A stretch of DNA of 64,000 nucleotides from NCBI RefSeq assembly GCF_020042345.1, contig NZ_CP083387.1, positions 1,302,001-1,366,000 of the forward strand, read 5' to 3'. This document shows, one piece after another, positions 31,559 through 50,877 of the stretch. A model generated the notes under the pieces. It was not told the origin of the DNA. It searched no databases and was given only the letters and a program-made list of their open reading frames with translations. This stretch comes from Arachidicoccus terrestris. Lineage in GTDB: Bacteria; Bacteroidota; Bacteroidia; Chitinophagales; Chitinophagaceae. Both the position numbers and the translations under genes were made by a program. Position 1 is the first letter of the stretch, and the number at the start of each line of letters is the position of its first letter.

Positions 31559-33256
31559 TTATTGTTGGTAGATCTCTCTTTCAAACTTATCGAGCCAATG
31601 AGACCCCTGTAACCCCCAGTCACTGTTCGGTTCTACCTTTAACCAATAAAACATATTCGCTACAATATCTTCAGTTACCGGAACCACTGAAATACCCGTG
31701 TTTGTGTCAGGGACCATCGACACCGGCACATCAGTTCCCAGTCCGTCCCATTGAAAATTCCCGGTCATCATCATATCATATCCTTTTGGCGCTCTGTTAG
31801 TCACCAGACCTCCTCCCCCCTCGTCAATGGGCCAGTAACCGATCAGGTGGGCATACTCTGGATGTTTGGTGATATCTTTCAACGCAATGTTATTAGCGAT
31901 CGTCTCTGCATCCAGTGCAATATCAAAGATCTCCAGGTCCGCTGCATGAAAATCAGCACCTCCGGAGCCAGGATCAGATACATTTCCAATGGCAAGCGGC
32001 GCATCCGTATTCAGGCTTTTGTTGCCTGTGATATCCTTAGAGGTCGCAAATACACCATCTGTATATACATACGCCGTACGTTTTCCATCTTCCATTTTTA
32101 CACTAAAGGTAATCGTATGCCATTTGCCATTCACAATCGGCGTATTGACTGCAATCTGGTTCTTGCCGCTACCGCCATTGGCCGTACCTCCAAATTCAAC
32201 ATTATAATGATCATTTTCCAGCATTAAAAACCATCCGGTTAATTTACTACCATCCAACGGTGTATTTTTACCCAAAAAACCAGGATAGTTTCTACTGCTG
32301 GGGATATTTACCTGGACCTGGACTGTAAAGTCTTTATCTGCACCAAAATTATATAGTCCCTTATCATCCGGTATATGTGCAATAGCTCCCGCAGTCCCTG
32401 ATCCCTTAAAATGAATGGTATTGAAGCCCACTTTCTTGAGTTCTTCCTTTTTCAGTTTAGCATTGGAGGCAATAACAAATCCCAATTGCGGATTCTCTGC
32501 ACTACCGCCCCGTGCAGAGGTTACCATAATCAGCCAGTCTTCTGCCGCAATGTTCTCACGATTTTGGAGTGCTTTTACAACCTCACCCACATAGCTGTCA
32601 ACTTTGTCTACGGCCGCCTTAAATCCTGCATCACTTAAGTCATACTTACCTGCATGCCCGGCGAGGTCAACGCTATTAAAATCTAAAAACATAACGCCCA
32701 TTGTTGTTAGCCGTAATAGAGAAACCGCAGAGTCCTTTACAGCCGCGTCATTATTTACCAGGTAAGGATAGTCTGCAATTTGGACGGTGTTTACCAGATT
32801 GCGCCAGGGAGAAACAAGAGCCGTTTTATATCCCGGTTTCGTCTGCAAGACATAATTAAGTACATTTGGCACATAAGGTGTTGGCGATCCTTCCCCCTCA
32901 CTGACATCTCCGGTTGGAATATATTGAAAGCTGCTGTCATAAATCTGGTGCTTGCCGAACCCGACGCCTGTCAAAAGGCTTGTCCAAACCGCAGCATCCG
33001 TACTATTCACGTTTTTTAATTGTGCAAATGAATACTTACCTGTCTCCATCAACTTTTCAAGGTTGGACAATTTAGCGGCTTTCAATTGGGGGCCACTTAA
33101 TCCATTAATATTAATGATCAGCACTTTACGTTGATTAACAACACTATCCTCGCCATACGCCTCAAAATAAGGCGGCGGATCTGCATATTTCTTACAGGCA
33201 CTGCCCAGGATTGTAACAACCAGCATGCAAAATCCTAATTTTCTCATCATTGCCAT
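31559..33256 (-). CDS. Alkaline-phosphatase-fold/LamG lipoprotein, probably catalytically degenerate (copy A)
   Basis: About 565 aa from the ATG at 33256; other in-frame ATGs at 33250 and 33247 fit the lipobox LGSAC equally. Residues about 43-265 look like a type I phosphodiesterase/alkaline phosphatase fold: KVLIININGLSG, VWTSLLTGV, FNSVDLAGH, DWLIMVTSARGG. Residues about 300-460 look like a LamG/concanavalin-type domain (FTVQVQVNIPSSRN, WHTITFSVKMEDGKRTAYVYTDG). The first metal Asp is Asn (N51), and the usual SDHG near 246 is SARGG, while D197 and H201 remain. Resembles the DUF4983-type phosphodiesterases of Bacteroidota. Catalysis is doubtful; a polymer-binding role is plausible. Last gene of the block; paralogue of 35377. 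Confidence 0.85.
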   Translation of the reverse strand: MAMMRKLGFCMLVVTILGSACKKYADPPPYFEAYGEDSVVNQRKVLIININGLSGPQLKAAKLSNLEKLMETGKYSFAQLKNVNSTDAAVWTSLLTGVGFGKHQIYDSSFQYIPTGDVSEGEGSPTPYVPNVLNYVLQTKPGYKTALVSPWRNLVNTVQIADYPYLVNNDAAVKDSAVSLLRLTTMGVMFLDFNSVDLAGHAGKYDLSDAGFKAAVDKVDSYVGEVVKALQNRENIAAEDWLIMVTSARGGSAENPQLGFVIASNAKLKKEELKKVGFNTIHFKGSGTAGAIAHIPDDKGLYNFGADKDFTVQVQVNIPSSRNYPGFLGKNTPLDGSKLTGWFLMLENDHYNVEFGGTANGGSGKNQIAVNTPIVNGKWHTITFSVKMEDGKRTAYVYTDGVFATSKDITGNKSLNTDAPLAIGNVSDPGSGGADFHAADLEIFDIALDAETIANNIALKDITKHPEYAHLIGYWPIDEGGGGLVTNRAPKGYDMMMTGNFQWDGLGTDVPVSMVPDTNTGISVVPVTEDIVANMFYWLKVEPNSDWGLQGSHWLDKFEREIYQQ

Positions 33257-33336
33257 AATATTACGATTTTCCGAGTTCTTTAATAAATTGTTCGATACAA
33301 TAGAGGAACAACATCTAACCATTTACTCAATACCTT

Positions 33337-35298
33337 CTAAAATACATTTACCTCAGCCATGGATGCAAACTGGGATGCATCTGTTTGCCCTTTGGTGAAC
33401 ACCAGTTTAAAGACCTGAAAACTCTGAGGTGAACTGAAATTGATGGCCTGCTGTTCATTTTGTGAGGCTAGGTCTGATTCTGTATACTTCGTCAGATGGT
33501 CTTTGTCCGGTCCCAGCCACACTTCTACATGCGATGGACGGGTTCCGGAACTATTCTGCCTCATCGTCAGGTAAATCCCATGAAGATTTTGTTTCTTCTC
33601 TGTCATGTCGATTAATAAATAATGCGGATAAGGAGGTTGCGCCTGATACCACTGAGAATGCCAGAAGGTATTGACATTTCCATCCAGTACATTGATGGCC
33701 GCTCCATCTTCGCCTTCGGTTTCCTGAGAATCAAATTCAACCAACCAGTCCGTCCTCGGCACGGTATAATCGACTACGTTATCACCTCCGCTTTTTGTCA
33801 GTGGATTGTAGTTCCATATATCTGTCGGGACTTTGTCAGGGAACTGGTCGCCCATGGCGGACCTGGACTGCGCAGAGAGGGCTATCCCCCAAGCCTGGAA
33901 AAATTTATAATAATCAAGATGCGTATATTCACAGACGGCCTCATATAGAAAATCATGTTTTGCGAGATCTGTCAAAGAATAACGCTGGGCATGCCGTGTC
34001 CTCCAATATAAATAAGGCATCAGCCCATATCCGTCCTGTTTGCCGTCCCAGCGCTTGATTTTATCAAATAACTGCATAAAGGGCACCATGCGTGTGAAGG
34101 GACTATTCACCAATGGATCAGTATCAAACTTTTTCCCTTCATTCGGCTGGGATGTGTATGCCAGGCCGTCGCGTACAGCGCCTGGTAATGCGGGATGTAA
34201 GGCGCTGATATTTTTAATACCGATTCGGTGAGCGCGCTTGATTGAAAACAGGTTATTTGTCGTTTCCCCCAGTGTACTCCAACTCCAGTATTGTCCCTGT
34301 TGATTATTATGACCAATTTCATGAAGCGTCCCCCAGATAGATACAGTGTCTGTTGCAAGCATCGCTGCACTAAACCATTCATTATCATCTTGTGCCACAA
34401 CAGGGAAACCGCTATGCCCATAGCCTACCACAGGCTGGATATCCAAGACAATTCTCCAGGGCAGATTAATAGGCTTATCCCTTTGGTCGGAGGCGGTATC
34501 AGACAGGCCTTCCCATTCGTTATAATCTTTTTCAATGATCTCATCCCATGCCTTCAATTCGGCAATCGGATCAACATCCGGGTGTCTCATAATATAATCC
34601 ACCATTTTCTGGCGGGGTAAGGTAAAGGCCACATGACCGGAAGCAAACTCAAACCACGGCACTTTACTGTCCATGATATCTTTCTTCCAGGTAGCTGCAT
34701 CTGTTTTGCCCAACACAAAGTCCGGGCTCTTACACGCCCCGGTGAAATTCAATGTGACGGGCTGCTTTATCGGAAAGTTCGTTACAACATAAATATTTCC
34801 TCCGAATAAATTGCGGACATAATTTCTGCCGGGGAACAGCATTTTCTCACTATAAATGATCGGCTCCCTTCTCCTATCCTTGGTGCCGCTAAGATCGTCC
34901 GTCCACATCCCGATCAGGCAGACCAATCCCTTTACACCGGCAGGCACATCGATAATAACAGGCTCTCCGGGCGCTGCATACATTCCCGTACCAAATATAG
35001 GTTGCGGGATGACACTGATCCGCAAACGATTGTAGGCTTCATTCAGATAATTAAGGTTTAAAGTAACCGGGTAGTCCTTTATCCTTGGCTCTGCCGCGTC
35101 TACCAAACCAGGAAAAATCCGGGCCTTAGACAGCATACTGAAATCTGGCCTGCTGCCGGAAGTATCCACCGTAATATGCTCTTTCAACGTATCAAGGCCG
35201 TATCCGTCCTTTATGTCAAATCCGTACTTCTTACAGCCCGAAACGACCAGCATACTTGCCACCGTCAGAAGACCTAATAAAGCATGTATTTTTTTCAT
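33337..35298 (-). CDS. M60-family zinc metallopeptidase lipoprotein with C-terminal discoidin-like domain
   Basis: 653 aa. Lipobox VVSGC (Cys22). Residues about 95-200 form a beta-rich domain preceding the catalytic region; H326-E327-I-G-H330 with E345 15 residues after the second His fits the HExxHx(8,28)E gluzincin signature of M60 (enhancin/mucinase) peptidases. The C-terminal part (about 530-653) resembles a galactose-binding/F5-F8 type C domain: INVLDGNVNTFWHSQW, HYLLIDMTEKKQNLHGIYLT, SHVEVWLG. M60 proteins cut O-glycosylated mucin-type proteins. It lies between the two ALP/LamG lipoproteins. Confidence 0.9.
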   Translation of the reverse strand: MKKIHALLGLLTVASMLVVSGCKKYGFDIKDGYGLDTLKEHITVDTSGSRPDFSMLSKARIFPGLVDAAEPRIKDYPVTLNLNYLNEAYNRLRISVIPQPIFGTGMYAAPGEPVIIDVPAGVKGLVCLIGMWTDDLSGTKDRRREPIIYSEKMLFPGRNYVRNLFGGNIYVVTNFPIKQPVTLNFTGACKSPDFVLGKTDAATWKKDIMDSKVPWFEFASGHVAFTLPRQKMVDYIMRHPDVDPIAELKAWDEIIEKDYNEWEGLSDTASDQRDKPINLPWRIVLDIQPVVGYGHSGFPVVAQDDNEWFSAAMLATDTVSIWGTLHEIGHNNQQGQYWSWSTLGETTNNLFSIKRAHRIGIKNISALHPALPGAVRDGLAYTSQPNEGKKFDTDPLVNSPFTRMVPFMQLFDKIKRWDGKQDGYGLMPYLYWRTRHAQRYSLTDLAKHDFLYEAVCEYTHLDYYKFFQAWGIALSAQSRSAMGDQFPDKVPTDIWNYNPLTKSGGDNVVDYTVPRTDWLVEFDSQETEGEDGAAINVLDGNVNTFWHSQWYQAQPPYPHYLLIDMTEKKQNLHGIYLTMRQNSSGTRPSHVEVWLGPDKDHLTKYTESDLASQNEQQAINFSSPQSFQVFKLVFTKGQTDASQFASMAEVNVF

Positions 35299-35376
35299 CC
35301 GAAAATATTTTATTGTTGGGTTGGCCGCTCATGCATATTGCAAACCGGCCAGTTCAAATCTAAATTTCAATCACAG

Positions 35377-37191
35377 TTAATAATTATCGGGCAACTGAAC
35401 ATCATTATACCCATTGGACCAATATTGCCCGTCAAGTCCCCAGGACGGATTAATAACGATACCCAGCCACTGATAAATCTGTAAAGGAATATCCAGCCCA
35501 TTAGGCGTCGCTTTGTAGAAATTCTTGTCGGGCGAAGGACATACATTATTACTTACTTCATTAAAGGACTTCCATGTCGCGAGGCCACTTGGATCCTGAA
35601 TCACCCCATCCTGCTGATTCACAGAATAATCTTTAACGGTCGTGCTGTTATTTCCGTCGTTCATTTTATAATTAGCAGCCAGGTAGGGATAATAGGGGCT
35701 TGAAGTAGAGATATCCGTTTTACAGTTATACTGAGTGATTATATCGTACGGTAACAATGTTTTCCAATACCTGAAATCTGTCAGATAAAAATCTGTATAC
35801 TTCGTTACACTGGCGGTGCTCCCATGTCCAAAAGTCAGCGCCCTGCCAGATGTCAAATTGCTGCTAAGCGTCACAACACGCTCACTGATATCAATCAGGC
35901 CGTCATAATATAGATTTATATGCACTTTATCACTTCCTTTCGGCCAGGCAAGCGTCGCCGCAAGGGTGTGCCAGTTATTATCCTTAATCTGTACCGTCAT
36001 ATCGACATTATAATAGGTTTTGGAGTCAGAAATATATAATAAAAAACCTGAGCCTGTCCGCCAGAATCCCCACCCATTCCCATTAGAATACCAGCCGGTT
36101 TGTGAACCCACCAGGTTCAGAAAATAGCCACCACCGGAAAGTTCATAATCCAGGAATTTTACTTTAAAAGCGATCGTAATACTATCACCCTGTTTAAAAT
36201 CATATACCCTTTTTGGATCATCTACTTTCACGTTTACACCGGTTGAGCCAATACCTGTAAACAGCAAAGAAGAATCACGGTAAGCTGAGAGTCCCTTGGT
36301 AGAAGGGGTTCCGTCCCTGCCGATATTTTCGTCAACGAATCTTGGGTTGTTGTAAATAATAAAATTGTTCCGGCGTGTATCATTATATGCAGAAGTACTA
36401 TCGCCGTTATTATTCTTGTCAACCGAACCATTCTCATTAGAGGCCAGAATCACCAGCCAGTCTTCATTGGCATAATTGGGCCTCGCCTTAAGTGCTGCCA
36501 TAATTTCCCCGATATAACCATCTACCTTCTCAACGGCAGCCGCATACTCAGCCACGTCAAACCTATACCCGAACTGATCACCTGCAACGGCAATGCTATG
36601 AAACTGACCGATAACCAGACTCGCAGAATCATCTTTCAACGTGCTAATGACATTGGCCGCAACAGCACCGTCGTCGCCTGTTGACAATTTGTGTTTAGTT
36701 GCGCCCGTTAACAAATGGCTGTCAAATAAGGGAGAGGCGGCATAGCCCACAGTACGCAAATCCGGTTCAAGCTTCTTTAACCGGCTCACAATGGAAGGAT
36801 AAGTCTCCAGGTCCGCCGTATCAAATCCGGCGCCCACCTTTGACTTATCGGTATTCACACCCGTCATCATGGACGTCCAGGCACCCGGCAATACCGTATC
36901 CCGGTTATTGGACCCGCTGATCCCTATCCATGTATACACGGATGTTTTCAGAAGAGCAGTAATATTAGCCGGCGCGAGCGTGTCTATTTGTTTGCCTTCG
37001 GCACCATCAAGAATCAAATACAGCACCTTCCTCTGCTTAAAGGCTGAACCGCTGCCATCAGGAGGATAGCTGTCCTGCAGACTGTTTTCAACTGTCTTGT
37101 TACAGGAAAAGACCCCGACAACAAATGCAAGAAGCAAAAACCTGCTTGCCATTACTTTCAACTGCTGTGTATTTTTCAGTATCATCATCAC
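35377..37191 (-). CDS. Alkaline-phosphatase-fold/LamG lipoprotein, probably catalytically degenerate (copy B)
   Basis: 604 aa; lipobox VFSC (Cys30; Cys17 if the start is the ATG at 37152). Same layout as the gene at 31559: phosphodiesterase-like fold at about 55-265 with KVLYLILDGAEG (D62 kept), TVLPGAWTSMMTGV and DWLVILASNENG, then a LamG-type domain (about 330-500). Here the second ligand pair is lost: SIAVAGDQFG replaces the SVDLAGH-like segment, and SNENG replaces SDHG. Copy A has the opposite pattern. Both copies end with a WGLxGxxW motif. A binding role is more likely than catalysis. Located between the delta-60 lipoprotein and the M60 peptidase. Confidence 0.85.
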   Translation of the reverse strand: MMMILKNTQQLKVMASRFLLLAFVVGVFSCNKTVENSLQDSYPPDGSGSAFKQRKVLYLILDGAEGKQIDTLAPANITALLKTSVYTWIGISGSNNRDTVLPGAWTSMMTGVNTDKSKVGAGFDTADLETYPSIVSRLKKLEPDLRTVGYAASPLFDSHLLTGATKHKLSTGDDGAVAANVISTLKDDSASLVIGQFHSIAVAGDQFGYRFDVAEYAAAVEKVDGYIGEIMAALKARPNYANEDWLVILASNENGSVDKNNNGDSTSAYNDTRRNNFIIYNNPRFVDENIGRDGTPSTKGLSAYRDSSLLFTGIGSTGVNVKVDDPKRVYDFKQGDSITIAFKVKFLDYELSGGGYFLNLVGSQTGWYSNGNGWGFWRTGSGFLLYISDSKTYYNVDMTVQIKDNNWHTLAATLAWPKGSDKVHINLYYDGLIDISERVVTLSSNLTSGRALTFGHGSTASVTKYTDFYLTDFRYWKTLLPYDIITQYNCKTDISTSSPYYPYLAANYKMNDGNNSTTVKDYSVNQQDGVIQDPSGLATWKSFNEVSNNVCPSPDKNFYKATPNGLDIPLQIYQWLGIVINPSWGLDGQYWSNGYNDVQLPDNY

Positions 37192-37208
37192 TGTTAACCT
37201 TTATTATT

Positions 37209-38810
37209 TTAATCAAAAGCAATTTTTACGATATTCCCTACTTTCACATTGTCAAACAAAGTGAAATAGCCATACAGTACCACCGAATGCGGATTGATTT
37301 CAACCATGCCATAGATCTCACCCGCGAAACTGCCGGTGTTATTATAACCGGCCGCCAGTGTTCCATCCTGATTTAAAATCATGAAACCCTGACGCACGAT
37401 ATCATTATACTTGTTGAATGTACCCGAAACAATAATCTTTCCATCATTTAACTGGCCGGCAAAACTCGGACGCCCTCCAGACAGGGCGCCTAATGCAAAG
37501 CTATCGTCATAAGTTCCATCTGCATTCAGCATGGCGATACCGTTTGCTTTATGTCCATCAAACTGTGTAAAATCACCAGACACTAAAATCTTGCCCGTCT
37601 GCTTATTGTAGGTAATTTTCTGAATGTCGCCATCGGCACCCTGACCAATATTTGCAGCAAAGTCGGGATCCAGTCCACCCTCATCTGTCAGGGCACAAAT
37701 TCTGGCCGCCGGCGCGCCGTCAAAGCGCGTAAATGAGCCGACAAAAATAATTTTACCGTCTGGCAACTGTATCGCGTCTGCGATACCCCCATTCAGCTTC
37801 CACCTTCCCTTTTGAATTGTCTCATCAAAATTATAGGAAGAGTCCAGCTTGCCATCTGCATCCAACCGGATGAAATTATACATCTCTGTCTGATCAACAT
37901 AATAGTTATCCTTCTGCGACCCTTCATAAAAATAGCTGTAGTAGCTCACGAAGTTGCCTATCGCTATGATTCCCTGATCTTTGCTTTCGAACAATCTTGA
38001 AACACTTCCGGTTAAATAAGCATTTAAAGCAGGCACCCTGGCTGTATCGGCTTCCGGATTTTTTTCGCCATTGGGGTTCACCAGGTCTACGACCATAGTA
38101 TCTATAGAACAGTCGTCATTCAGTCTTGTAAGGCCTTCCACTCTGTGTGCACCATAGCCCGAAAGTACCCCTCCGATATAATATTTCGAGTTCAGGCTGA
38201 GAATCGTAGAGACAGTACCGCCAAATGCGCCCTTGCCGGCGCTGTATTCCTGTACAGTCCCGTCACCGGCAATTTTGACAATACTGTTAACAGGACTGCT
38301 GGCACTGGCATTATTAAAATCACTAAATGCACCTCCTAAAAGGAACATGCCATTTCCGGCACCATTATAATAAGCCGTAAAAATGGGACCATTCGCACCA
38401 TTCCCTATTTTAAACGTTCGGTCGATCGATACCCGGCCATCTATTTTTAAAATCGGGCCATAGAAATACTGCCCGTCAACAGTAAGTACTGATGCCGGGC
38501 CGGAAGATGTCCCTTCCGGTATCACAACAGTAGCCAGGCTGTCTGTAACAGCCACCACTTCTGCCGGTATCTGGTTAATAAAAAATTTAAAATCCTTCAA
38601 TTTGTCCAGACCGACAACTTCAAAGGTAACCTTATCTCCTGCCCTGCCGTCCTGAGGATTCGGCTTTTTACCATAAAACTGGACAGCCGTCTGTGGCGCA
38701 TCAAAATAGGGCCCACTGCCAAGTTCAGTTTTTTTACTGCACCCACCGATCGATAAGCCTACCATCAGGCAGCTTGATACCAAAAAATATTTCAGCGCTA
38801 GTTTATTCAT
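37209..38810 (-). CDS. Delta-60-repeat beta-propeller lipoprotein with N-terminal IPT/TIG-like domain (DUF5008-like)
   Basis: 533 aa; lipobox SIGGC (Cys24). Residues about 45-115 resemble an IPT/TIG domain (GDKVTFEVVGLDKLKDFKFF, AEVVAVTDSLATVVIPEG). The remainder repeats a delta-60 (DUF5122) pattern about every 40-60 residues: DAIQLPDGKIIFVGSFTRFDG, NKQTGKILVSGDFTQFDG, NADGTYDDSF, LNDGKIIVSGTFNKY. Such propellers bind other molecules. It likely is a surface-exposed accessory protein of the SusC/SusD pair upstream. DUF5008 assignment is from memory. Confidence 0.8.
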   Translation of the reverse strand: MNKLALKYFLVSSCLMVGLSIGGCSKKTELGSGPYFDAPQTAVQFYGKKPNPQDGRAGDKVTFEVVGLDKLKDFKFFINQIPAEVVAVTDSLATVVIPEGTSSGPASVLTVDGQYFYGPILKIDGRVSIDRTFKIGNGANGPIFTAYYNGAGNGMFLLGGAFSDFNNASASSPVNSIVKIAGDGTVQEYSAGKGAFGGTVSTILSLNSKYYIGGVLSGYGAHRVEGLTRLNDDCSIDTMVVDLVNPNGEKNPEADTARVPALNAYLTGSVSRLFESKDQGIIAIGNFVSYYSYFYEGSQKDNYYVDQTEMYNFIRLDADGKLDSSYNFDETIQKGRWKLNGGIADAIQLPDGKIIFVGSFTRFDGAPAARICALTDEGGLDPDFAANIGQGADGDIQKITYNKQTGKILVSGDFTQFDGHKANGIAMLNADGTYDDSFALGALSGGRPSFAGQLNDGKIIVSGTFNKYNDIVRQGFMILNQDGTLAAGYNNTGSFAGEIYGMVEINPHSVVLYGYFTLFDNVKVGNIVKIAFD

Positions 38811-38873
38811 TATTTCAACCTTTTTAATAAGTACGTCTTATAATTTAGATCTTACTTTCTTCTTTTCTGACTC

Positions 38874-39644: not shown

Positions 39645-39706
39645 CTTTACAATTTTTAAAATGAAACGCTTCAACACAAAGGCCTGTTTTCAAAAGCAAA
39701 ACATTA

Positions 39707-41233: not shown

Positions 41234-41283
41234 AGTCTCAATTTTTATTAACCGTCCTGTTTATAACTTTATTATACAAATCA

Positions 41284-44200
41284 CTAAAACTGAATATCTA
41301 TACCTAAAACATAGTTTTTCGGGTTAGGATAACCATTAGGGTTATCAAAGCCCAGACTCGTTACGTTCTCAGGACTGCTGCCGGAGTACGGAGAAATAAT
41401 CAAAAGATTCGCCCCGGTAAAATAGACCCTTGCAGAAGTAATTCCAAAACGTTTACTCCACCCTTTGTCGATCATATAGGACAACGTAACATTATTCAAC
41501 TTCCAGTAAGATCCGTCTTCAAAAAAGAGTGTCTGATTGTGACGATAGGGATTCATGAGCGGGGCATTCAGATAGTCAAAAGGATTTGGAAAATCTGCAT
41601 TATCGCCATCTACCTTCCAATAATTATATCCGTCAATCGGTACCAGCACGCCATTGTTAGAAAGATTGCTATTGCTTCCGGTAAACAAGGGATCTTTAAA
41701 ATGTTCAAACTTTCCTGCCAGGGCTGTATTGATCACATCTCTGAATAGTGTGGCAGAAATACTCGAATTCAATGTCCACTGCTTATACTTAATATAAAAG
41801 TTGATGCCGCCTGTCAGTTTAGGCAAAGGATTACCCAAAACAACCAAATCATTATCATCAATAATATAGTCTCCGTTCAGGTCTGTCCAGATGGGAGATC
41901 CCCCGGTCAGATAAACATCACTTCCCAATCCGACCTGAACCGGGCGGCCGGTCAACGGGTCGACAATCACTGCACTGGCAGTCGGGTAGACGCCAACTGT
42001 ATTATACACCATGGTCTGCAAAGGGGTATTACCGATTCTATACAGCAAAGGATATTTAGTAGCCGCATCTGGCTTAATCAACTGTCGCATGTTATCCGGA
42101 AGCCTGGTCAGGACATCATGGTTAATGCCGACATTTGCTGAAATATTCCAGCTCAGGCTTTTTTCATCGCTACTCGGAGCAGACCTGAATGACAGGGTCA
42201 ACTCATTACCATAGCTTACAGTAGAAACATCGTTGGTCACCAGTTTCTGATAGCCGGTCGTATTGGCCAGTGCGTTGTCGAACGGCTGATTATCCTTGGT
42301 ATTATAGTAAAAATCATACATGACGCTAAGCCGGTTGTTGAAGAACGTCCCCTCATATCCCACATCAAAAGACGTATTGGTATACGATTTAAAGTTGACA
42401 TTAGGCGCATACTCAAAATCGGAGACAATAGTCTGCTGTCCGTTATAGTTGGTCCCCGGTGCAAACTTTCCATAGACGCTAAATATATCACCTGTCGGAA
42501 CGAGCGTTGTACCGTAGCTGAATCTAAAGGAGCTTTCATTCATCCAGTGCCAGCTCTTGGTCCACTCTTCATTTTGCATATTCCAGCGTGCACTGATGGT
42601 CGGACTTTTCATAAAACCTGAATTAGGCCCATTGGTAGAAGTTCCGGAAGCGCGATACTGAAAATCAACGACATACCGGAGTTTATAATTATAGCTAAAA
42701 GCTCCCCCGTAGGCAAAAGTGCGGCTATCCTTTGCATTATCAAATGTCCCGGCCACACTGGCATACCAGTTATATCCGTTAGGCCCTGTCAGATAGTCAT
42801 TTGCTGATCCGGACAACATAGACTGATCAGCCCTGTAAGAATCCATCGTTATTTCGTCAAATACAAAAATGTTGAAGTTATGCGCAGCCTCTCCGTCCTT
42901 ATCTATCGTCTTGATATAGTTCAGTGAGTTTCTGTTATACAGTGAGTAAGTACGGCTGTGATAAGAAGTGGTCAAACCATTACCTTTATTAATAATGGAC
43001 GGCTTAAAATTATCGCTTATGGAGGAATTGAAATTATAATTCGAACTGCTCAATATTTGGATGCCTTCAACAGGCATCCACTGAATATCAATGCTGGGCT
43101 GTACCTGAATCGTTTTATTGTCATCCCGTACTGAAATACTCGCGAGTGCTTCATTATTGGCTGAATATTGAGAAGGCGCTGGCAGCAGCGAAGAAGCGTT
43201 CGTGCCGTCCGCCACACCTTCCTGCACCAATCCATTCCCACTGCCATTACGCTTCTGAGCCAGCCCGGAATTAATGGCAGCCGTCAAAATGAATTTTTCC
43301 GATGGTTGGTACCGGGTGTTCATATTCAGGCTGTATCTGGTCAGGCCAGTATTCTCTATAATCCCTTTCTGATCAAAAACACCCATATTCACTTTATAAT
43401 TAAATTTCTGGCTTCCCCCTCTAATGTTGATATTATGGGTGTGATTATAGGTCGGCTTGTAAAAAACGGCCTGCCAGTTGGTGGAATTATTGTAATATGG
43501 ATTCAGGCTGTCAGACAAATACGGATGGGAGTTAATCTGTAAAAGTGCATCCGCATACGATGTGTCGTAGGCCAGTAGCTGGCGGATACGCAACATCCGT
43601 TCTTCCCTGCCGCCAATAACATCTCTGAGTCTCGGAATATCGCTGTAAAACACTTTTCCCTGATACTCCACAATGGGGATTTCAGAATTCCCCCTTTTTG
43701 TTGTCACCAGTATTACACCATAAGCCCCCCTGGATCCCCAAAGCGCCGTGGCGGCAGCGTCTTTTAATACTTCAACTTTCTCGATATCTTCCACAGGAAT
43801 CAAAGAAAGAGGGCTGATGCCGGGGCCTCCTTGATTAAACCCATACTGATACTCACTATTCATATCAACGGGTACGCCATCAATCACAAACAAAGGAGAA
43901 GTGGGAGTCAGATAACCATTCGCTCCTGAACCGGATACAGAGATATTGGAAAGTCCGCGAACAAACATGGCACCTCTCGCCCCGGGAGATCCGTTATTAT
44001 TCTGTATATTCAAACCTGCCACCTTACCCTGCAAAAGATCGGCAACACTTGCTGCAGGGACATCCTGCAGGTCTTTCCCCGAAATCACAATCGATGAACC
44101 GGTATTGGCATCCCGGGATACCTTTCTAAACCCGACCACCGCAACATCTTGTAAATCACTGTCATCTTTTGTCGTCATGGCGACTTCCATTTCATTTTTG

Positions 44201-44469
44201 GAATTCGCAATCGCCGTCGCATTGACATAATTTACGAAGGTAAATTCCAGCTCTGTACCATCGGGAACCTCTACTGTAAACTTCCCATGCTCATCAGTCC
44301 TGCCCACCACTTTGCGGGTCTTCTTTATTAAGATAGACACACCAACCATCGGATTATTTGTCACTTTATCAATCACCGTCCCCGAACAGCTGGCCTTTGT
44401 CTGCCCAAATGAAGGCTGAATGCCAAAGCACATTGTAAATATTAATAAAATAGCAATCACATGCCTCAT
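41284..44469 (-). CDS. SusC/RagA-family TonB-dependent receptor, copy 1
   Basis: 1061 aa. Signal peptide (about 1-22). Carboxypeptidase-regulatory-like domain at about 30-105 (CSGTVIDKVTNNPMVGVSIL ... GRTDEHGKFTVEVP). Plug domain at about 125-260 with VADLLQGKVAGLNIQNNNGSPGARGAMFVRG, PLFVIDGVPVD and VEKVEVLKDAAATALWGSRG; the remainder is the beta-barrel, ending in NPKNYVLGIDIQF. Imports oligomers captured by SusD, using the TonB-ExbBD motor. Followed 50 bp later by its SusD. Confidence 0.96.
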   Translation of the reverse strand: MRHVIAILLIFTMCFGIQPSFGQTKASCSGTVIDKVTNNPMVGVSILIKKTRKVVGRTDEHGKFTVEVPDGTELEFTFVNYVNATAIANSKNEMEVAMTTKDDSDLQDVAVVGFRKVSRDANTGSSIVISGKDLQDVPAASVADLLQGKVAGLNIQNNNGSPGARGAMFVRGLSNISVSGSGANGYLTPTSPLFVIDGVPVDMNSEYQYGFNQGGPGISPLSLIPVEDIEKVEVLKDAAATALWGSRGAYGVILVTTKRGNSEIPIVEYQGKVFYSDIPRLRDVIGGREERMLRIRQLLAYDTSYADALLQINSHPYLSDSLNPYYNNSTNWQAVFYKPTYNHTHNINIRGGSQKFNYKVNMGVFDQKGIIENTGLTRYSLNMNTRYQPSEKFILTAAINSGLAQKRNGSGNGLVQEGVADGTNASSLLPAPSQYSANNEALASISVRDDNKTIQVQPSIDIQWMPVEGIQILSSSNYNFNSSISDNFKPSIINKGNGLTTSYHSRTYSLYNRNSLNYIKTIDKDGEAAHNFNIFVFDEITMDSYRADQSMLSGSANDYLTGPNGYNWYASVAGTFDNAKDSRTFAYGGAFSYNYKLRYVVDFQYRASGTSTNGPNSGFMKSPTISARWNMQNEEWTKSWHWMNESSFRFSYGTTLVPTGDIFSVYGKFAPGTNYNGQQTIVSDFEYAPNVNFKSYTNTSFDVGYEGTFFNNRLSVMYDFYYNTKDNQPFDNALANTTGYQKLVTNDVSTVSYGNELTLSFRSAPSSDEKSLSWNISANVGINHDVLTRLPDNMRQLIKPDAATKYPLLYRIGNTPLQTMVYNTVGVYPTASAVIVDPLTGRPVQVGLGSDVYLTGGSPIWTDLNGDYIIDDNDLVVLGNPLPKLTGGINFYIKYKQWTLNSSISATLFRDVINTALAGKFEHFKDPLFTGSNSNLSNNGVLVPIDGYNYWKVDGDNADFPNPFDYLNAPLMNPYRHNQTLFFEDGSYWKLNNVTLSYMIDKGWSKRFGITSARVYFTGANLLIISPYSGSSPENVTSLGFDNPNGYPNPKNYVLGIDIQF

Positions 44470-44529
44470 AGCTAAACTTTTGTATATTAAAAAAGCAATA
44501 TAATTTCAGAGATTTCTACGACGGAAAAT

Positions 44530-45540
44530 TTATTCATCCTCAAAATTGGGGTTATCATTGATAAACCAAAATTTGATCTGCCAGTCGCCCGGCTCATAAA
44601 TAGCGAAATCAAGCCCCAGGTTGGCAATCATTCTCTTACCGCCAAAACCTAGCCTGTCGTAACTAAAAACAGTATGTGCTTTCAGACCATCAGTAGTTGT
44701 ATAGCGGGTTTTTAAATTCGTCAGTGGAATCGGATAAGCCACCTGATAGGTAACAGCCGTATCACTCATTTTCATGTCAAAGCCATGCACCAGGTTCTTC
44801 CAGTCCGTGAGATTAAATTTTTTGGGGTTGATCGGATTCTGAAGCGTGTCTAAAAACTGAAAACTCAGTGAATTTCCATTGCCGACTTTATGAAAAATAA
44901 CGCCGATCTGATATACAAACTGCCGGGTATGCTCTCCGTAAATATTCTGAACGAAGGTGGGATAAATGCCGACAGAGGTTGTCTGTCCGGTGATCGGATC
45001 CTGTATGCTCGGTTCAAAAGGGATCTCCCTGAAAGGCTTCAGCCGCATATTACGGAAGTAGCGCCTTCCGCCGGAATTCGTCATCTCTACATCAAAAATA
45101 TAACCGGAGTCAGGCTGTGCGTGAATAAAAGTGGACTTGGCCTCAGGCCACATTACAAACTGCCCCGAATGTTCCCTGATCTCAAAAAGCCGGTGATTCT
45201 CCACGCCTCTTTTTTCACTAATCTCCTTCAGTGATGTTTCCTTTCCTGTATAGGCTTCTTTCCAGACTTTAACAGGAAACACATCAGTCAACTCGGGGGC
45301 TGCCTCTCCTGAATAGCTGCGCGGATTAATAATTTTAAAATTAAGCGGCTGTGTCGAGTTGCCGACATTAAAAGTATTGAAGAGCGTCGCCCGGCCAAGA
45401 ACGGGAGAGTAAACATCCTGTGTAAAACTTGAATTGGTGGCCACAGAAGCCCTTTCATCCGGCAAAAGTTTGTCACATGAATTCAATACCAGGCTGCTGA
45501 AGGCTAACAAGGCCAATGGTACTCTGAATAGTAATCTCAT
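44530..45540 (-). CDS. DUF5007-like lipoprotein
   Basis: 336 aa from the ATG at 45540 (upstream frame has no signal). Lipobox VLNSC (Cys22) followed by DKLLPDERAS. Beta-rich soluble domain with AAPELTDVFPVKVWKEAYTG, KSTFIHAQPDSGYIFDVEM and a C-terminal YEPGDWQIKFWFINDNPNFEDE. It resembles DUF5007 proteins encoded near SusC/SusD genes; the family name is from memory. Possibly a surface binding protein. It follows the second FAS1 lipoprotein and precedes SusC copy 1. Confidence 0.75.
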   Translation of the reverse strand: MRLLFRVPLALLAFSSLVLNSCDKLLPDERASVATNSSFTQDVYSPVLGRATLFNTFNVGNSTQPLNFKIINPRSYSGEAAPELTDVFPVKVWKEAYTGKETSLKEISEKRGVENHRLFEIREHSGQFVMWPEAKSTFIHAQPDSGYIFDVEMTNSGGRRYFRNMRLKPFREIPFEPSIQDPITGQTTSVGIYPTFVQNIYGEHTRQFVYQIGVIFHKVGNGNSLSFQFLDTLQNPINPKKFNLTDWKNLVHGFDMKMSDTAVTYQVAYPIPLTNLKTRYTTTDGLKAHTVFSYDRLGFGGKRMIANLGLDFAIYEPGDWQIKFWFINDNPNFEDE

Positions 45541-45607
45541 CCGATTAAATTTATTAGTTGACTCAGGGAGTTTACCCTTTGAGTTATATTTTTTAAACAT
45601 TTAATTG

Positions 45608-46309
45608 CTATTTATTCATCCGCCTTGTAAACTCTCCAAACCCAAACTCATGACCACCTGACAGAAGATGTACGATGCCATTAGTGGTATGTATGTTGAC
45701 AGAAGTCGTGTAGGTCGTTACCCAATACCTTTCAAATATGGAACTTTTGGGATCGCTGAGCTGAATTTCCTGCGGGCCACCGTTCTGGTATCCATTTGCA
45801 TCCTGCCGGTTATAGCGCAGATGCATATCATAATCATAACGCAGGCTTTCTACTCCGACACCATCCGTAAATTTGGATAATGAGTCGGTCGTATACTCAC
45901 CTTTAATCACATACCGGCATAGCAAAGTGTCTAATTCCACCAGGTCAATATCACTTAAACTAAGAGGTGCCTTATGCTGACTGCCCCTTAATTCATTTAG
46001 GTTCTTGAGTGCATTGGTAAAACACTGGTTGGTGGGCGCAAACAAGGTGACCGAAAAATTTTCAATCGTGTCCTTAAGATTAGGAACCCTGTCAATCACA
46101 TATACCAGGGAATCATATAGCCCTCCCTGGCTCTTTAAGAAAGCATATGTGCTTCCCTCATATACTGCATTGCGATTCTGATAGTCATAATAGGCTCCTT
46201 CGTGGCTTTTAGAACAGCCTATAGCGAACAGCAGTAGGCCTGCCATTAACCATATGCCGCCACCAGCTTTTATTTTATTCTTAAATAAACTTTTCATTGT
46301 ACCCATCAT
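45608..46309 (-). CDS. Fasciclin (FAS1)-domain lipoprotein B
   Basis: 233 aa; lipobox FAIGC (Cys32, or Cys28 if the start is the fifth codon). Seen: AFLKSQGGLYDSLVYVIDRVPNLKDTIENFSVTLFAPTNQCF, LDTLLCRYVIKGEY and the end VNIHTTNGIVHLLSGGHEFG, all typical of FAS1. Shorter than the FAS1 protein at 38874 but in the same position relative to its SusD (16 bp downstream of SusD copy 2). Confidence 0.83.
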   Translation of the reverse strand: MMGTMKSLFKNKIKAGGGIWLMAGLLLFAIGCSKSHEGAYYDYQNRNAVYEGSTYAFLKSQGGLYDSLVYVIDRVPNLKDTIENFSVTLFAPTNQCFTNALKNLNELRGSQHKAPLSLSDIDLVELDTLLCRYVIKGEYTTDSLSKFTDGVGVESLRYDYDMHLRYNRQDANGYQNGGPQEIQLSDPKSSIFERYWVTTYTTSVNIHTTNGIVHLLSGGHEFGFGEFTRRMNK

Positions 46310-46325
46310 TTTATAACTGACTTAA

Positions 46326-47864
46326 TTATTTTACAACGTTCCAATATGCGTTCTGCGTCAATTTCTCATTAGCAGACAAAACGGAGGCCGCTATCGGCCA
46401 ATAGATTCCGCCTTCATCTATCAACTTGGTCATTTCAGGATCCTTTCTGGTTATCTTATTATAGCGGATCTGGTCATACCATCTCCATCCTTCGCCCATT
46501 AATTCCCTTCGTCTTTCCGCAAAGATGGCATCAATCAGGGGCCCGTCCACAGTAGCCTCATAAGGCGACTCACCCCGTTTGGTGCGAATAATATCCAGTA
46601 GTGTAATCGCCCCATCTACACCGATTGACTTCCCTAAAACAGCGTCTGCCTCCGCTTTCAAAAGGGTGATCTCTTCGAGTCTGGAAAAAATAATCGCAGA
46701 GCTGTAAATAGCGAACTCCCCGTCGGTGCCCCCATCTCCTAAAACCTTTATTTTTGAAAAAATGGGAATCTCAGCATTGTAGTTAGTAAAGTAAGCTGTT
46801 CTGGGAAGTCCGTTAACGGTGTCAATACCAAAGCGCTGATCACCCCGGTCTGTAAAAGCCGCATTGATTACATCCACCGGAACATACATATCCGGTTTGG
46901 GTTTGGTAATTAAAGGAGCTGCCAGTGTCCAGGACTCAATATGGCCGACACCACTGGTACCGGTCTCCCCATGACCATATACAAAATTGAATCCCAATAA
47001 CTGATTATAGTTTCCCCTGGCATAAAAGACACCATCGGGGTCAGTCAAGTCACTTGTGGTCAGATAGTAAAGGTGTGAATTACTGTAATTATCAATAACA
47101 AACTTCGCATACACGTCTACGTCCGCATAATGTCCTTGCCAGGCAGCCACATGCGCCAATAAAGCATAGGCGGCTGTTCTTGAAATCAACGTATTCTCAA
47201 AGCGGGATAATCCATAGGTGTAATACAAACCTGGTAAGATCGGGTCATCCAGTACACCGTACTGGAATGGCAAAACCTGCGCTGCTGCTAATAGCTCCTG
47301 TTCACAAAAAGAAAGTACCTTCCCCTGGCTGGACTTTCCAATTGCCGGAAAGCTTCCGTCATAAGAATTCGTAATAAACGGAACATCGCCCCAGATACGC
47401 ACCATCATAAAATAAGCCCATGCCCTGAGCGAACGTACCTGTGCCACATCCACATCGTGATTCAGTGTTGTATAACGTGGATCAACCAGTGCTTCTCCAG
47501 ATCTTTCTATAAAAAGGTTAGCGGCATTAATGACTGCATAAAAGCGGCGCCAGTCCTTCATATCATCAAGGGTTTTATAGGAGGCATTCAGGTCGCCGTC
47601 AATAACGGCTTTTAAATCGGCGCGGGTAGTGGACACAAAATCTCCATGACGCAACTCTCCCCAGAGCCAATAATCATTATTATTCGCCAAAGCTGCCCGG
47701 AAAAGAGCATATACCCCGATCAGGTTGCTCCTTGTATCATCCATCGTTTTCCATTGCGTGTTTTCATTCGCCATGGCGTTGGTATCGACATCCAGCTTTT
47801 TATTACAAGCGCCAAGTACAAACAGTAACAACAGGGCGCATAATAAGGTCTTACTAAATCTCAT
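46326..47864 (-). CDS. SusD/RagB-family nutrient-binding lipoprotein, copy 2
   Basis: 512 aa from the ATG at 47864; lipobox VLGAC (Cys20) then NKKLDVDTNAM. Seen: NTQWKTMDDTRSNLIGVYALFRAAL, AQVRSLRAWAYFMMVRIWGDVPFI, LLKAEADAVLGKSIGVDGAITLLDIIRTKRG and AERRRELMGEGWRWYDQIRYN, all typical of SusD. Partner of the SusC upstream by about 30 bp. Confidence 0.94.
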   Translation of the reverse strand: MRFSKTLLCALLLLFVLGACNKKLDVDTNAMANENTQWKTMDDTRSNLIGVYALFRAALANNNDYWLWGELRHGDFVSTTRADLKAVIDGDLNASYKTLDDMKDWRRFYAVINAANLFIERSGEALVDPRYTTLNHDVDVAQVRSLRAWAYFMMVRIWGDVPFITNSYDGSFPAIGKSSQGKVLSFCEQELLAAAQVLPFQYGVLDDPILPGLYYTYGLSRFENTLISRTAAYALLAHVAAWQGHYADVDVYAKFVIDNYSNSHLYYLTTSDLTDPDGVFYARGNYNQLLGFNFVYGHGETGTSGVGHIESWTLAAPLITKPKPDMYVPVDVINAAFTDRGDQRFGIDTVNGLPRTAYFTNYNAEIPIFSKIKVLGDGGTDGEFAIYSSAIIFSRLEEITLLKAEADAVLGKSIGVDGAITLLDIIRTKRGESPYEATVDGPLIDAIFAERRRELMGEGWRWYDQIRYNKITRKDPEMTKLIDEGGIYWPIAASVLSANEKLTQNAYWNVVK

Positions 47865-47895
47865 TGTATATAATATTATCTCGATTATCAATTAA

Positions 47896-50877
47896 TTAAA
47901 GATCCAGGCGCAGGCCGATCGTGTATGTTTTAGGCAACAGCTGATTATAGCCCCTGTAGTATCCCTGGTAGTCCACTAGTTCGGGATCACCATGTTTAAA
48001 TGAACTGATCGTGAATAAATTAGTAGCGGAAACATATAACTGCGCACTCCTGAAGATCCTGTCAGGATTATTCCTGTCGCCGTGCATCATATCATATCCA
48101 ATCGTGAGTGACCGCAGCTTTAAAAAAGAAGCATTCTCCAGAAATAAATCCTGATCAATCTGGTAGGGAACAACATTACTCCAGGGATTATATACGGGAT
48201 AGTCGCTGGGTTCGAAAGTTTTTTGCCAGTAGGTAATTTCCTTGACCGTAGAAAGATCCCGGCTACCTTCCGTATTAATAAAGTCAAATCTGTTTGCGAT
48301 TTGTTGGTTGAGTAGTTTTTGCCCCAGGGCAAAATAGAATTGAAAACTCAGGTTAAAGCCATTGTAGGTGAAATTATTACCAAAACCACCGGTGACAGTC
48401 GGCATTGCGTGCCCCTTAAATACTTTATCATCTTCATTAATATCATAATCCCCATTCAGATCTGCCCATCTTGGATCACCTGCATTCAATAAGAGTCCAT
48501 TGAATGACTGCCTCACTCCAGTCTTACTATTAACGGGAATCGAAGCAACATCTTCATATATGCCCTGGTTCTCATACACCCAGAAGGCATCGACAGGCTG
48601 GCCGATCTCCAGTTTTCTGTTTCCTATTATGATGGACTGAAGTCCATCGGGGAGCGCCGTTAACTTGTTCTTATTGAGCCCTAGATTAAAGTTCGTCGTC
48701 CAGGAAAACCGATCCGGATTTTCCGGTGCAAAAATCCGCCCCATTAAACTGACATCCACGCCTTTGTTATTGACCACCATGCCATTTTTATAGGCCGCAG
48801 TATAGCCTAGCTCCTTAGGTACAGGGACCGGGATTATCAGATTCTTATTATCTTCATTATAAAGATCGACAGAGAGCTGAATGTGATCATCGGCAAAACC
48901 AAAATCCAGTCCAAGATTCATTTTATCCGATTTCTGCCAGCCAATACCATAACCCGCCCAACCCGTCGTATACGGCCTGGAGGCGGCGGCGATGCCAACA
49001 TAAGAACCAATGGCAGGATCCGCGGGCCAGCTTGCATCTGTTACGTACCTGGGACCTTTGCTATAGATATCTGTATTATACAGAGCTCCGAAACTTCCAT
49101 ATGATGCCCGTACTTCAAGATTACTCAAGGCAGTAGATTTTTTCAACAGGCTGCTTAATACATCCCAGGACAGATTGACGACGGGACTGGTGATCCAGCG
49201 ACTATCCGGTTGTACATTGGAAGAACCATCTCTTCTTACAACACCTGTCAATGTCAGGTAGTCTTTATAGCTATAGTTTACCTGTCCGTAAAAGGAGGTC
49301 ACTCTCTGATTTAACTTACCAAAAAACGGAAAATATTGCATGTTGAATATAGGCACGTAATCGCCACCATCATTGATCTTGGTCGTTCTGAACTTTATAA
49401 AGTTATTGGGAGTATTATAACCGAATGCATAGTCATAACGGTTGATATCAGCCTGATAAGACTGTCCGGCTTCCAGATCTATTTTATGGTCTTCATTCAG
49501 CTTAAATTCATAAGAAGCTGTATTAGACAGCAGTAACCTTTGATTATAGCCAAAATAATAGGAAACAAAATTATTACCACTAAGCAGCTCTGTTGGCCAG
49601 AATGCATCCCGCTGGGATTCATTGTAATCAACAGACAGCTTCGACAACAGAGAAAAGCCAGAGAGTTTTGCTCCCACAGAAAAATAGCCCTGGATGCTGT
49701 TTACTTTGTTATCATCAATCGCTTCGTCAAAATCATGCAGATACTTTCCATACACATTGCTGCTGGGCGGTAATGGGTTACTGAGATCAGGGATATAGCG
49801 AACTTCAGCGAGCCTGTCCCTGATATTTCTGTTTCTGTCTCTTTCCAAACGGTTCGCATTAATCATGCTGGATACCGTCAGCCAGGTCAGGGGCGACATG
49901 TTGATAAAAAACGACAGACCATACTTGTTGAGCCCGGCTCCATCTTGCCCTGAAACACTTTTGGTATTATTGACCTGGAACCGGAAATTAGCTCTCGGGG
50001 AACCGCCTGTGAGACTCATATTCACGGCATAAAAAGGCTTATTCTTAAAATAGAGATCCGTCCAGTCGGCCGTTCCATAGTACTCCTGATCAGTAGAGTC
50101 CTTCAAATACACCGGGTAATTGATCAGATCCGCTGCCGTGGCATACTTGTTATAAAAAGTCTGCCTGAACTGATTTTCGTAAGCCGCATTTACTGGTGTC
50201 ACTTTCGGGGACTGAATCATTCCAAAATAAGCGTCTATCGCGATGTGTTTCTCTCCTGACTGCGCTTTTTTTGTGGTTACCCAGATAGCCCCATTAGTGG
50301 CCAGAGGCCCTAACTTCGCCAGGGTTGCAGGATCTTTAAGTATTTCAATGCTTTCAATACTATTGGGATCAACTGTCGTTAAAAGATTGGTCGCAGGTCC
50401 TACCATATTGAAATCTGTCGCTTGTATATCAAGAGGCATTATGCTGTTTTGTATGAGAGCCACTCCATTGACAAAAACAACCGGCTGCTGGGCATACAGA
50501 TCTTTCTTTGACAACATAGGCCCCTTCAGTCCATGGATAAACATATACTGCTCAGATCCGGGCTCGCCGTTGGGTTCGGCGACATATACGCCGGCAGCAT
50601 TCCCTTTAACCATCTGCTGAATAGAAACATAATCCAAGCGATTAATAATATTGGTATCAACTTTCGCCCGATAAGGATTAGAGCCTGAAAGTTCATTGAT
50701 GATTCTTGTCTGATTGGTCAATTTCATCAAAGAATCCACGTTACCTGAAGCAGAGTCCTTTGTATTATTGAACAAATCAAGTGCTTTTGATCGGTGTGTC
50801 GAGTCCTGACCAAAGAGTTGTACCTGACAAACAAATGTCATAAGCACTATCAGCAGCTTATGATTTCTCCCGTTCAT
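47896..50877 (-). CDS. SusC/RagA-family TonB-dependent receptor, copy 2 (no N-terminal carboxypeptidase-like domain)
   Basis: About 993 aa from the ATG at 50877, which gives a signal peptide (MNGRNHKLLIVLMTFV ... LFGQ). Unlike copy 1, residues 25-85 are a charged linker with no carboxypeptidase-like domain. Plug domain: VSIQQMVKGNAAGVYVAEPN, PVVFVNGVALIQ, DPNSIESIEILKDPATLAKL, then a beta-barrel ending in LLPKTYTIGLRLDL. First gene of the eleven-gene block; a 1.1-kb region without gene lies upstream, presumably carrying the promoter. Confidence 0.93.
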   Translation of the reverse strand: MNGRNHKLLIVLMTFVCQVQLFGQDSTHRSKALDLFNNTKDSASGNVDSLMKLTNQTRIINELSGSNPYRAKVDTNIINRLDYVSIQQMVKGNAAGVYVAEPNGEPGSEQYMFIHGLKGPMLSKKDLYAQQPVVFVNGVALIQNSIMPLDIQATDFNMVGPATNLLTTVDPNSIESIEILKDPATLAKLGPLATNGAIWVTTKKAQSGEKHIAIDAYFGMIQSPKVTPVNAAYENQFRQTFYNKYATAADLINYPVYLKDSTDQEYYGTADWTDLYFKNKPFYAVNMSLTGGSPRANFRFQVNNTKSVSGQDGAGLNKYGLSFFINMSPLTWLTVSSMINANRLERDRNRNIRDRLAEVRYIPDLSNPLPPSSNVYGKYLHDFDEAIDDNKVNSIQGYFSVGAKLSGFSLLSKLSVDYNESQRDAFWPTELLSGNNFVSYYFGYNQRLLLSNTASYEFKLNEDHKIDLEAGQSYQADINRYDYAFGYNTPNNFIKFRTTKINDGGDYVPIFNMQYFPFFGKLNQRVTSFYGQVNYSYKDYLTLTGVVRRDGSSNVQPDSRWITSPVVNLSWDVLSSLLKKSTALSNLEVRASYGSFGALYNTDIYSKGPRYVTDASWPADPAIGSYVGIAAASRPYTTGWAGYGIGWQKSDKMNLGLDFGFADDHIQLSVDLYNEDNKNLIIPVPVPKELGYTAAYKNGMVVNNKGVDVSLMGRIFAPENPDRFSWTTNFNLGLNKNKLTALPDGLQSIIIGNRKLEIGQPVDAFWVYENQGIYEDVASIPVNSKTGVRQSFNGLLLNAGDPRWADLNGDYDINEDDKVFKGHAMPTVTGGFGNNFTYNGFNLSFQFYFALGQKLLNQQIANRFDFINTEGSRDLSTVKEITYWQKTFEPSDYPVYNPWSNVVPYQIDQDLFLENASFLKLRSLTIGYDMMHGDRNNPDRIFRSAQLYVSATNLFTISSFKHGDPELVDYQGYYRGYNQLLPKTYTIGLRLDL

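Follow-up and report, generated by a model that had tools for sequence, protein, structure and literature searches.

What might a Bacteroidota surface system take up when it encodes two SusC/SusD pairs and an M60 peptidase, with neither a glycoside hydrolase (GH) nor a regulator beside them? We address this question for an eleven-gene operon of Arachidicoccus terrestris (Chitinophagaceae), which lies in a stretch of 64,000 nucleotides (NCBI RefSeq assembly GCF_020042345.1, contig NZ_CP083387.1, positions 1,302,001 to 1,366,000 of the forward strand; "the window" below is this whole stretch, whose numbering we use). We hold it slightly better than an even bet that this is a polysaccharide utilization locus (PUL)-type operon harvesting O-glycosylated proteins, with GalNAc-type O-glycans the most likely presumed target. 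Glycoprotein uptake is the reading with the best support, to which we can now add an independent, regulatory argument, namely a predicted LacI-type operator that links the operon to N-acetylhexosamine (HexNAc)-type genes and would point to such a substrate. Genomes and loci are cited by G and L handles, the window genome being G000.

The operon consists of 11 open reading frames (ORFs), all on the minus strand and arranged head-to-tail from 50904 down to 31559 (19.3 kb). Searches with Pfam and NCBIfam profiles, from which our domain calls are drawn, bear out the gene identities of the initial annotation, the second FAS1 domain only below the cut-off, and give the order SusCa, SusDa, FAS1, DUF5007, SusCb, SusDb, FAS1-like, DUF5008/delta-60, ALP (alkaline phosphatase)/LamG, M60+F5/8C and ALP/LamG. 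With the flanking signals, the features are:

51173..51183, minus strand: predicted LacI-type operator GCAAACGTTTG, ~270 bp upstream of SusCa
47896..50904, minus strand: SusCa, TonB-dependent outer-membrane transporter 1 (Plug PF07715, 35.4 bits); its orthologs come first in the 11-gene loci
46326..47891, minus strand: SusDa, lipoprotein lid 1 (SusD_RagB PF07980; top PDB match 3hdx_A, 444 bits)
45608..46309, minus strand: FAS1-domain lipoprotein a (Fasciclin PF02469, 29.4 bits, above the cut-off of 22)
44530..45600, minus strand: DUF5007 lipoprotein (PF16398, 286.7 bits), N-terminal half predicted to be cadherin/Ig-like
41284..44469, minus strand: SusCb, TonB-dependent outer-membrane transporter 2 (Plug; TIGR04056, 585 bits)
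39707..41233, minus strand: SusDb, lipoprotein lid 2 (PF07980, 78 bits; top PDB match 3iv0_A, 305 bits)
38874..39677, minus strand: FAS1-like lipoprotein b (Fasciclin, 18.3 bits, below the Pfam cut-off of 22), its position conserved in full loci
37209..38810, minus strand: lipoprotein with DUF5008 and a delta-60/DUF5122 beta-propeller (profile matches)
35377..37191, minus strand: ALPa, alkaline-phosphatase-fold protein with an inserted LamG domain (Laminin_G_3, 30.9 bits), predicted to be a non-catalytic binding protein
33337..35298, minus strand: M60 peptidase lipoprotein with an M60-like N domain and F5/8C (PF13402, 115.7 bits, cut-off 25.8)
31559..33322, minus strand: ALPb, second ALP-fold/LamG lipoprotein, its first metal-ligand Asp replaced by Asn73
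31496..31531, minus strand: intrinsic terminator closing the operon, a GC-rich stem (GGCTCC/GGAGCC) followed by a T run

The intergenic gaps, in operon order, measure 4, 16, 7, 60, 50, 29, 63, 17, 78 and 14 bp, so that the earlier description of eleven same-strand genes with short gaps (4-78 bp) stands, and we treat them as one operon-like unit; the extent first proposed, 31559-50877, holds at its lower end, but the longest reading of SusCa starts at 50904, 50877 being an in-frame ATG further downstream. The two adjacent SusC/SusD pairs expected of a Sus-like system are present, as claimed, and are accompanied by the M60 peptidase with an intact active-site motif. Alongside the two SusC proteins there are nine predicted lipoproteins: a lipobox-like Cys is seen by eye near the N terminus of every non-SusC protein, and a simple lipobox pattern missed ALPa and caught an earlier Cys in the propeller protein. 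At only 23-26% identity (SusC a/b 24%, SusD 26%, FAS1 26%, ALP 23%), the paired copies are, judging from sequence, old. Four of the proteins (DUF5007, delta-60, FASb, ALPa) had no PDB sequence match at the thresholds used.

The arrangement recurs widely. A search for M60 proteins in 99 genomes, the window genome included, found orthologs of the ALPa-M60-ALPb type in six, again counting the window's (that of G002 is frameshifted). The same eleven-gene order, which the initial annotation had proposed to seek in related genomes, is present exactly in each of the seven other genomes that were first read at their M60 locus, namely G001, G002 and G004 of the same genus, G014 and G043 of the same family, and G137 and G348 of another family; G323, a genome read for its DUF5007, has only SusC-SusD-FAS1-DUF5007. 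We also scanned named genomes with an alignment of SusDb and examined the best 80 of 552 confirmed relatives, a set biased to close ones (L073 is the same locus as G014 and was counted once), and assigned their genes by profiles made from the window plus six of the 80. A nine-gene core, SusCa-SusDa-FAS1-DUF5007-SusCb-SusDb-FAS1-propeller-ALPa, is kept in 77 of these 80, the exceptions being L058 and L136, which are cut by contig ends, and L069, which is without a recognized ALPa; 34 of the 77 continue with M60-ALPb and 43 do not. The hosts include Sphingobacterium, Pedobacter, Mucilaginibacter, Chitinophaga, Niabella, Flavisolibacter, Parapedobacter and Sunxiuqinia, with the same gene order in Chitinophagaceae, Sphingobacteriaceae and one Prolixibacteraceae. 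Because the order is found in 7/7 first-read genomes and the core in 77/80 loci, the operon is not a chance arrangement. The gene set once singled out as unusual is thus real, but it belongs to a conserved operon whose core is common to M60-free loci, and its uniqueness to this genome is ruled out by its recurrence in relatives. DUF5007 itself was found in 4 genomes out of 295 in the class, one being the window's, and in 3 out of 393 in the order of Sunxiuqinia, whose own genome is one of the three.

Phylogenetic trees of the transporter components, obtained by quick searches and with several long branches, separate the operons with and without M60. On the SusCb tree (88 rows) the M60 operons cluster as one group (95*), the M60 label needing 2 changes where shuffled labels average 29.5; L136, whose contig ends before the tail, accounts for one of the two. 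The SusDa tree shows a single change, for the M60-free group (98*). On the SusCb tree the M60-bearing operons form a single branch, and the M60 form would have one origin. The window genome has a second, diverged copy of the core, eight genes without ALP or M60 (G000:C1:3128217-3142605, from L048:10218 to L049:4606), in which the first FAS1 protein bears CBM6 domains; downstream of it are esterases, two S66 peptidases and a LacI candidate. Elsewhere, G002 (L034) has its M60 gene in three pieces and ALPb and SusDa in two, by either decay or sequencing errors, and the M60-free tails of L106:15700-20834 and similar Pedobacter loci encode a PA14 protein, a PKD+F5/8C protein and then a glutaminase-A-like protein.

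M60 peptidases cut O-glycosylated proteins. The window protein belongs to this family by its PF13402 score and by the aligned motif HEIGH...GETTNN, in which both HEIGH and the downstream Glu of the active site are intact. The M60 enzyme BT4244 of Bacteroides thetaiotaomicron (B. theta) has been tested and acts on mucin-type glycoprotein, according to passages of PMC3267712 and PMC11992087. Among the 42 M60 genes compared, HExxH is intact in 38; it is altered to HQLGH, with the Glu mutated, in L070 and to HASGH in L075, and the motif is gone in L078 and L089. In these four the peptidase may possibly have turned into a binding protein. A GH29 gene adjoins the intact-M60 locus G137a.

Upstream of the operon, GCAAACGTTTG forms a palindrome of the LacI type, and it stands out in the otherwise diverged promoters of three same-genus genomes. 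The motif CAANCGNTTG occurs within 450 bp of SusCa in 25 of 42 M60 loci (28 with half-sites; some M60 loci offered less than 450 bp of upstream DNA), and in just one of 22 M60-free loci (three with half-sites), for each of which 450 bp were read; the latter comprise 20 of the 43 full M60-free named loci plus the paralogous G000b and G137b. This difference has a Fisher p of 1.1e-5, uncorrected for relatedness, and the background is 0.017 per 450 bp, counted over all DNA used with true sites included. LacI homologs (E <= 1e-60) are encoded by 37 of 39 genomes, M60-free ones included. In G014 the LacI gene is divergent and beside the operon. In 12 of 29 genomes, by coordinates, no more than 400 bp separate a LacI gene from a kinase gene; the PDB matches of the LacI-linked kinase are N-acetylhexosamine 1-kinases. 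The 24 LacI or kinase loci fetched, four pairs of which overlap, make 20 distinct places, and 18 of these hold the motif, often between lacI and kinase. Flavisolibacter brings the components together in the order LacI, operators, the eleven genes, one further ORF, operators and kinase, and in Pedobacter polaris the kinase follows ALPb. As a separate observation, G014 (Chitinophagaceae bacterium 26-R-25) has eight copies of the HexNAc-kinase-type gene, some adjoining LacI homologs.

The window genome contains 30 GCAAWCGWTTG sites (control 0). The operator motif lies 79 bp ahead of a GH109 gene (PF21252, 261 bits) that is followed by a HexNAc-type kinase gene (G000:C1:3475129-3477647, ~2.1 Mb from the window operon); it also lies 88 bp ahead of a gene for a NagP-like transporter (422 bits; model cut-off 625), near glmS and in front of other SusC genes. 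The window operon shares its operator with the promoters of a putative LacI/HexNAc-type kinase regulon. In this genome the candidate LacI gene (G000:C1:3147146-3148126; 50% identity to the query) is found 4.5 kb past the second DUF5007 locus; the promoter of that locus is without the motif. A second palindrome type, GCAATCGATTG(C), at L217 and L221 (G000:C1:2197607 and 2489266), is found beside other LacI-like genes, one of which neighbors a xylulokinase-like gene, and probably represents a separate regulon.

The borders of the operon bear on what the initial annotation had reported as missing. At its lower end, the terminator at 31496-31531 was not listed by an automatic terminator scan, but the stem and T run described earlier are there, and the 81-base terminator stretch folds at -20.7 kcal/mol (z -2.5). 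The operon is flanked by exbB/exbD below and by atpA above; the 1.08 kb gap between operon and atpA holds no ORF of at least 90 aa and, at gathering scores, no Rfam match to a small RNA or riboswitch. Neither the 11 operon genes nor the six flanking genes scanned (exbD, exbB, CNNM, MFS, atpA and atp OSCP) include a glycoside hydrolase or other carbohydrate-active enzyme (CAZyme), nor is there a regulator inside the border or among those six, which likewise lack a hybrid two-component system (HTCS) regulator and arabinogalactan hydrolases; a classical PUL would carry both an enzyme and a regulator. The claim of no glycoside hydrolase thus stands for the locus, but the operator-bearing GH109-kinase operon lies elsewhere in the genome and GH genes stand beside the operons of some relatives. 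Similarly, no regulator is found locally, but the promoter has the conserved operator and the genome a LacI candidate. Because the operator is conserved while no regulator adjoins the operon, the regulator seems, on sequence grounds, to act on it in trans. The ExbB/ExbD genes, at 30227-31351, are directly below the window operon and likewise in three same-genus loci, and an ExbB-type gene is also found a few kb above the Sunxiuqinia operon (L231:1403-5194).

Two of the surface proteins have an enzyme-like fold. The model of ALPa (pLDDT 84.1) matches SPAP 3q3q at Z 26.6 (root-mean-square deviation (rmsd) 3.0, 268 residues), which places it in the alkaline phosphatase superfamily by model comparison, with a LamG domain inserted within the chain; a profile search matched an NPP enzyme, with no better than E 0.0009, over a short stretch. 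For a survey of the ALP proteins we used as a scheme the two-metal ligand positions of NPP enzymes. The first ligand Asp is kept in 84 of 85 ALPa and 42 of 45 ALPb proteins (it is Asn in the window ALPb). No protein of either kind has the sDHG motif's Asp-His pair (0/85 and 0/45; His alone in 3/85 and 34/45), and the His of D..GH is present in 0/85 ALPa and 1/45 ALPb, the sole case being the window ALPb. By this scheme neither protein has the two-metal ligand set, and a role as phosphatases or phosphodiesterases was rejected as first choice. Because these positions are not kept despite the superfamily fold, ALPa and ALPb are probably non-catalytic binding proteins; the initial description of ALP/LamG proteins is right as to the fold, borne out by the ALPa model, but they are probably not enzymes. 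For DUF5007 (model pLDDT 91.8), a Foldseek search gave no match at E <= 0.001, and the top VIA structural match is weak (Z 8.2, rmsd 2.6, 96 residues, over residues 50-192), so that in the model the N-terminal half weakly resembles cadherin/Ig domains.

We accordingly posit the following scheme for O-glycoprotein harvesting. The two SusC barrels with their SusD lids and seven further lipoproteins, presumably at the surface, would form a capture surface on which M60 would cut glycosylated protein. The SusCD pairs would then import the glycopeptides, powered by TonB/ExbBD, and deglycosylation and sugar metabolism would be left to genes elsewhere in the genome. A LacI-family regulator, perhaps the above candidate responding to a HexNAc-type ligand, would act on GCAAACGTTTG to coordinate the operon with HexNAc genes, including the GH109-kinase pair.

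Several observations weigh against this reading. Even a half-site is absent from the upstream DNA read for 14 of the 42 M60 loci, and LacI homologs occur no less often where the operon is M60-free. The LacI candidate of the window genome adjoins neither operon nor kinase, and the kinase, its sugar only presumed, is just 37% identical to the LacI-linked query kinase. Some GCAAWCGWTTG sites lie inside genes, one of them in M60 itself, and some precede unrelated genes. Similar sites also adjoin other LacI-type genes, and the GCAATCGATTGC type neighbors another LacI gene and one that, judged by eye, is xylulokinase-like. Because of the sites inside genes and the GCAATCGATTGC type beside another LacI, not every site belongs to one regulator. 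GH109 is also reported from a hexuronate regulon of Algoriphagus in the relevant part of PMC5507952. Finally, the window operon appears to be orthologous to the arabinogalactan-induced B. theta operon at BT0268, in which case mucin-type substrates would not be a fixed property of the core.

The last point introduces a serious rival, if on balance an unlikely one: a plant arabinogalactan system, in which the SusCD pairs would import fragments of type II arabinogalactan or arabinogalactan-protein (AGP) and M60 would cut the AGP backbone or be accessory. The top PDB relative of SusDa, 3hdx, probably B. theta BT0269 (in agreement with the NP numbering), falls in the SusDa tree within the M60 branch, beside L089 of Sunxiuqinia. 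Of the surrounding B. theta genes, BT0269-75 are annotated as SusD, hypothetical, DUF5007, SusD and DUF5124, and BT0277-79 as carbohydrate-binding protein, ALP family and hypothetical, in the portion of PMC10434189 concerned, which does not list every gene. This partial annotation is compatible with our operon in the order of its SusC/SusD, DUF5007, second SusD, carbohydrate-binding and ALP-family genes. The same source lists BT0269-79 as lowered under iron depletion (P values 0.007-0.18). PUL BT0262-90 has been assigned to arabinogalactan (PMC3243724, in part), and the bt0268 promoter is described as arabinogalactan-induced and under an HTCS (PMC6874557, in part), but a table in PMC13088901 still gives PUL5 (BT_0270, BT_0273) as of unknown substrate. 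In some relatives, GH29, GH35, GH16, GH43 or arabinofuranosidase genes adjoin the operon. In Mucilaginibacter L078 it is followed by GH35, GH35, GH16, galactokinase, symporter, GH43 and arabinofuranosidase genes, a set of hydrolases that we read as arabinogalactan-type, and in Sunxiuqinia L089 by an HTCS. In these two loci, however, the M60 motif is lost and no LacI operator is found in the 450 and 260 bp read upstream, and unlike PUL5, with its HTCS and arabinogalactan induction, the window operon has a LacI-type operator, an intact M60 motif and no such hydrolase among its six flanking genes. The glycoprotein-type substrate of the initial annotation stays our best guess, now with the operator argument, but AGP is a real rival to it.

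From the contrast between L078/L089, with M60 lost in a galactan or HTCS context, and the intact M60 elsewhere, one uptake machine seems to be used for two substrate classes, with a live peptidase for the one and a lost one for the other, as drawn from these two loci. We tentatively extend this to a broader proposal, in our estimate plausible without being the likelier outcome, that the two-receptor machine switched substrate class through its enzymes and regulator only: a live M60 with LacI/HexNAc control would serve O-glycoproteins by surface proteolysis alone, a dead M60 acting as a binding protein with an HTCS or galactan hydrolases would serve arabinogalactan, and the ALP-fold/LamG proteins would recognize glycans without catalysis, on what is structurally an enzyme fold. 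The link between a dead M60 and a substrate switch is imperfect, as L070 (HQLGH) retains operator-like sites.

General scavenging of proteins or peptides, by RagAB-like import and a broad surface protease without glycan specificity, we consider improbable. The SusCD-type complex RagAB has been implicated in the uptake of proteins or peptides (PMC11817032), and the operon encodes no glycoside hydrolase; against this, the M60 enzyme BT4244 is reported to act on mucin-type glycoprotein (PMC3267712 and PMC11992087), the F5/8C and LamG modules suggest glycan binding, and the operator connects the operon to HexNAc-type genes. An adhesion or biofilm-matrix system with nutrition secondary, in which the FAS1 domains, the cadherin/Ig-like half of DUF5007 and the two ALP-fold proteins without a metal ligand set would be adhesins, is very improbable, as the DUF5007 match is weak and two SusCD transporters, an intact-motif peptidase and the operator link favor nutrient uptake.

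We therefore return to O-glycoprotein harvesting. Among openly licensed papers we found none whose title or abstract describes the operon as a unit, not every match having been read, and we regard it as a PUL variant, a conserved set without an earlier functional assignment. Dozens of Bacteroidota genomes have this set of two SusCD pairs and DUF5007, DUF5008, FAS1 and ALP-LamG surface proteins, to which the proposal gives a testable function. If it is correct, glycoprotein harvesting can rely on surface proteolysis, with deglycosylation encoded elsewhere; if the two-class proposal also holds, one machine switches between animal-type glycoprotein and plant arabinogalactan, the peptidase persisting as a dead domain. 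In such loci the annotation "alkaline phosphatase family" may name non-enzymes.

Among known systems, the encoding of transporters together with several surface lipoproteins recalls the outer-membrane utilisomes (PMC7618045, in part), the window system being known from its genes alone. The BT3013/BT3015 PUL, which PMC11992087 describes as upregulated on mucosal glycans and as carrying an M60 but no CAZymes, is like the window operon M60-bearing and CAZyme-free, a comparison made by description only. The same source presents, in part, the mucin-induced PUL BT4240-50, which unites the GalNAc kinase BT4240 (APH family), GH109 BT4243 and M60 BT4244. Like it, the window system combines an M60 surface peptidase with SusCD, and the window genome has GH109 and a HexNAc-kinase-type gene, tied to the operon by a common predicted operator. 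Unlike BT4240-50, it does not hold M60, GH109 and a GalNAc kinase in a single locus, its GH109 and kinase genes being ~2.1 Mb away, and the operon has two SusCD pairs, FAS1, DUF5007, DUF5008 and ALP-fold proteins. By this analogy, the window system is best read as a putative split counterpart of BT4240-50, its parts brought together in trans.

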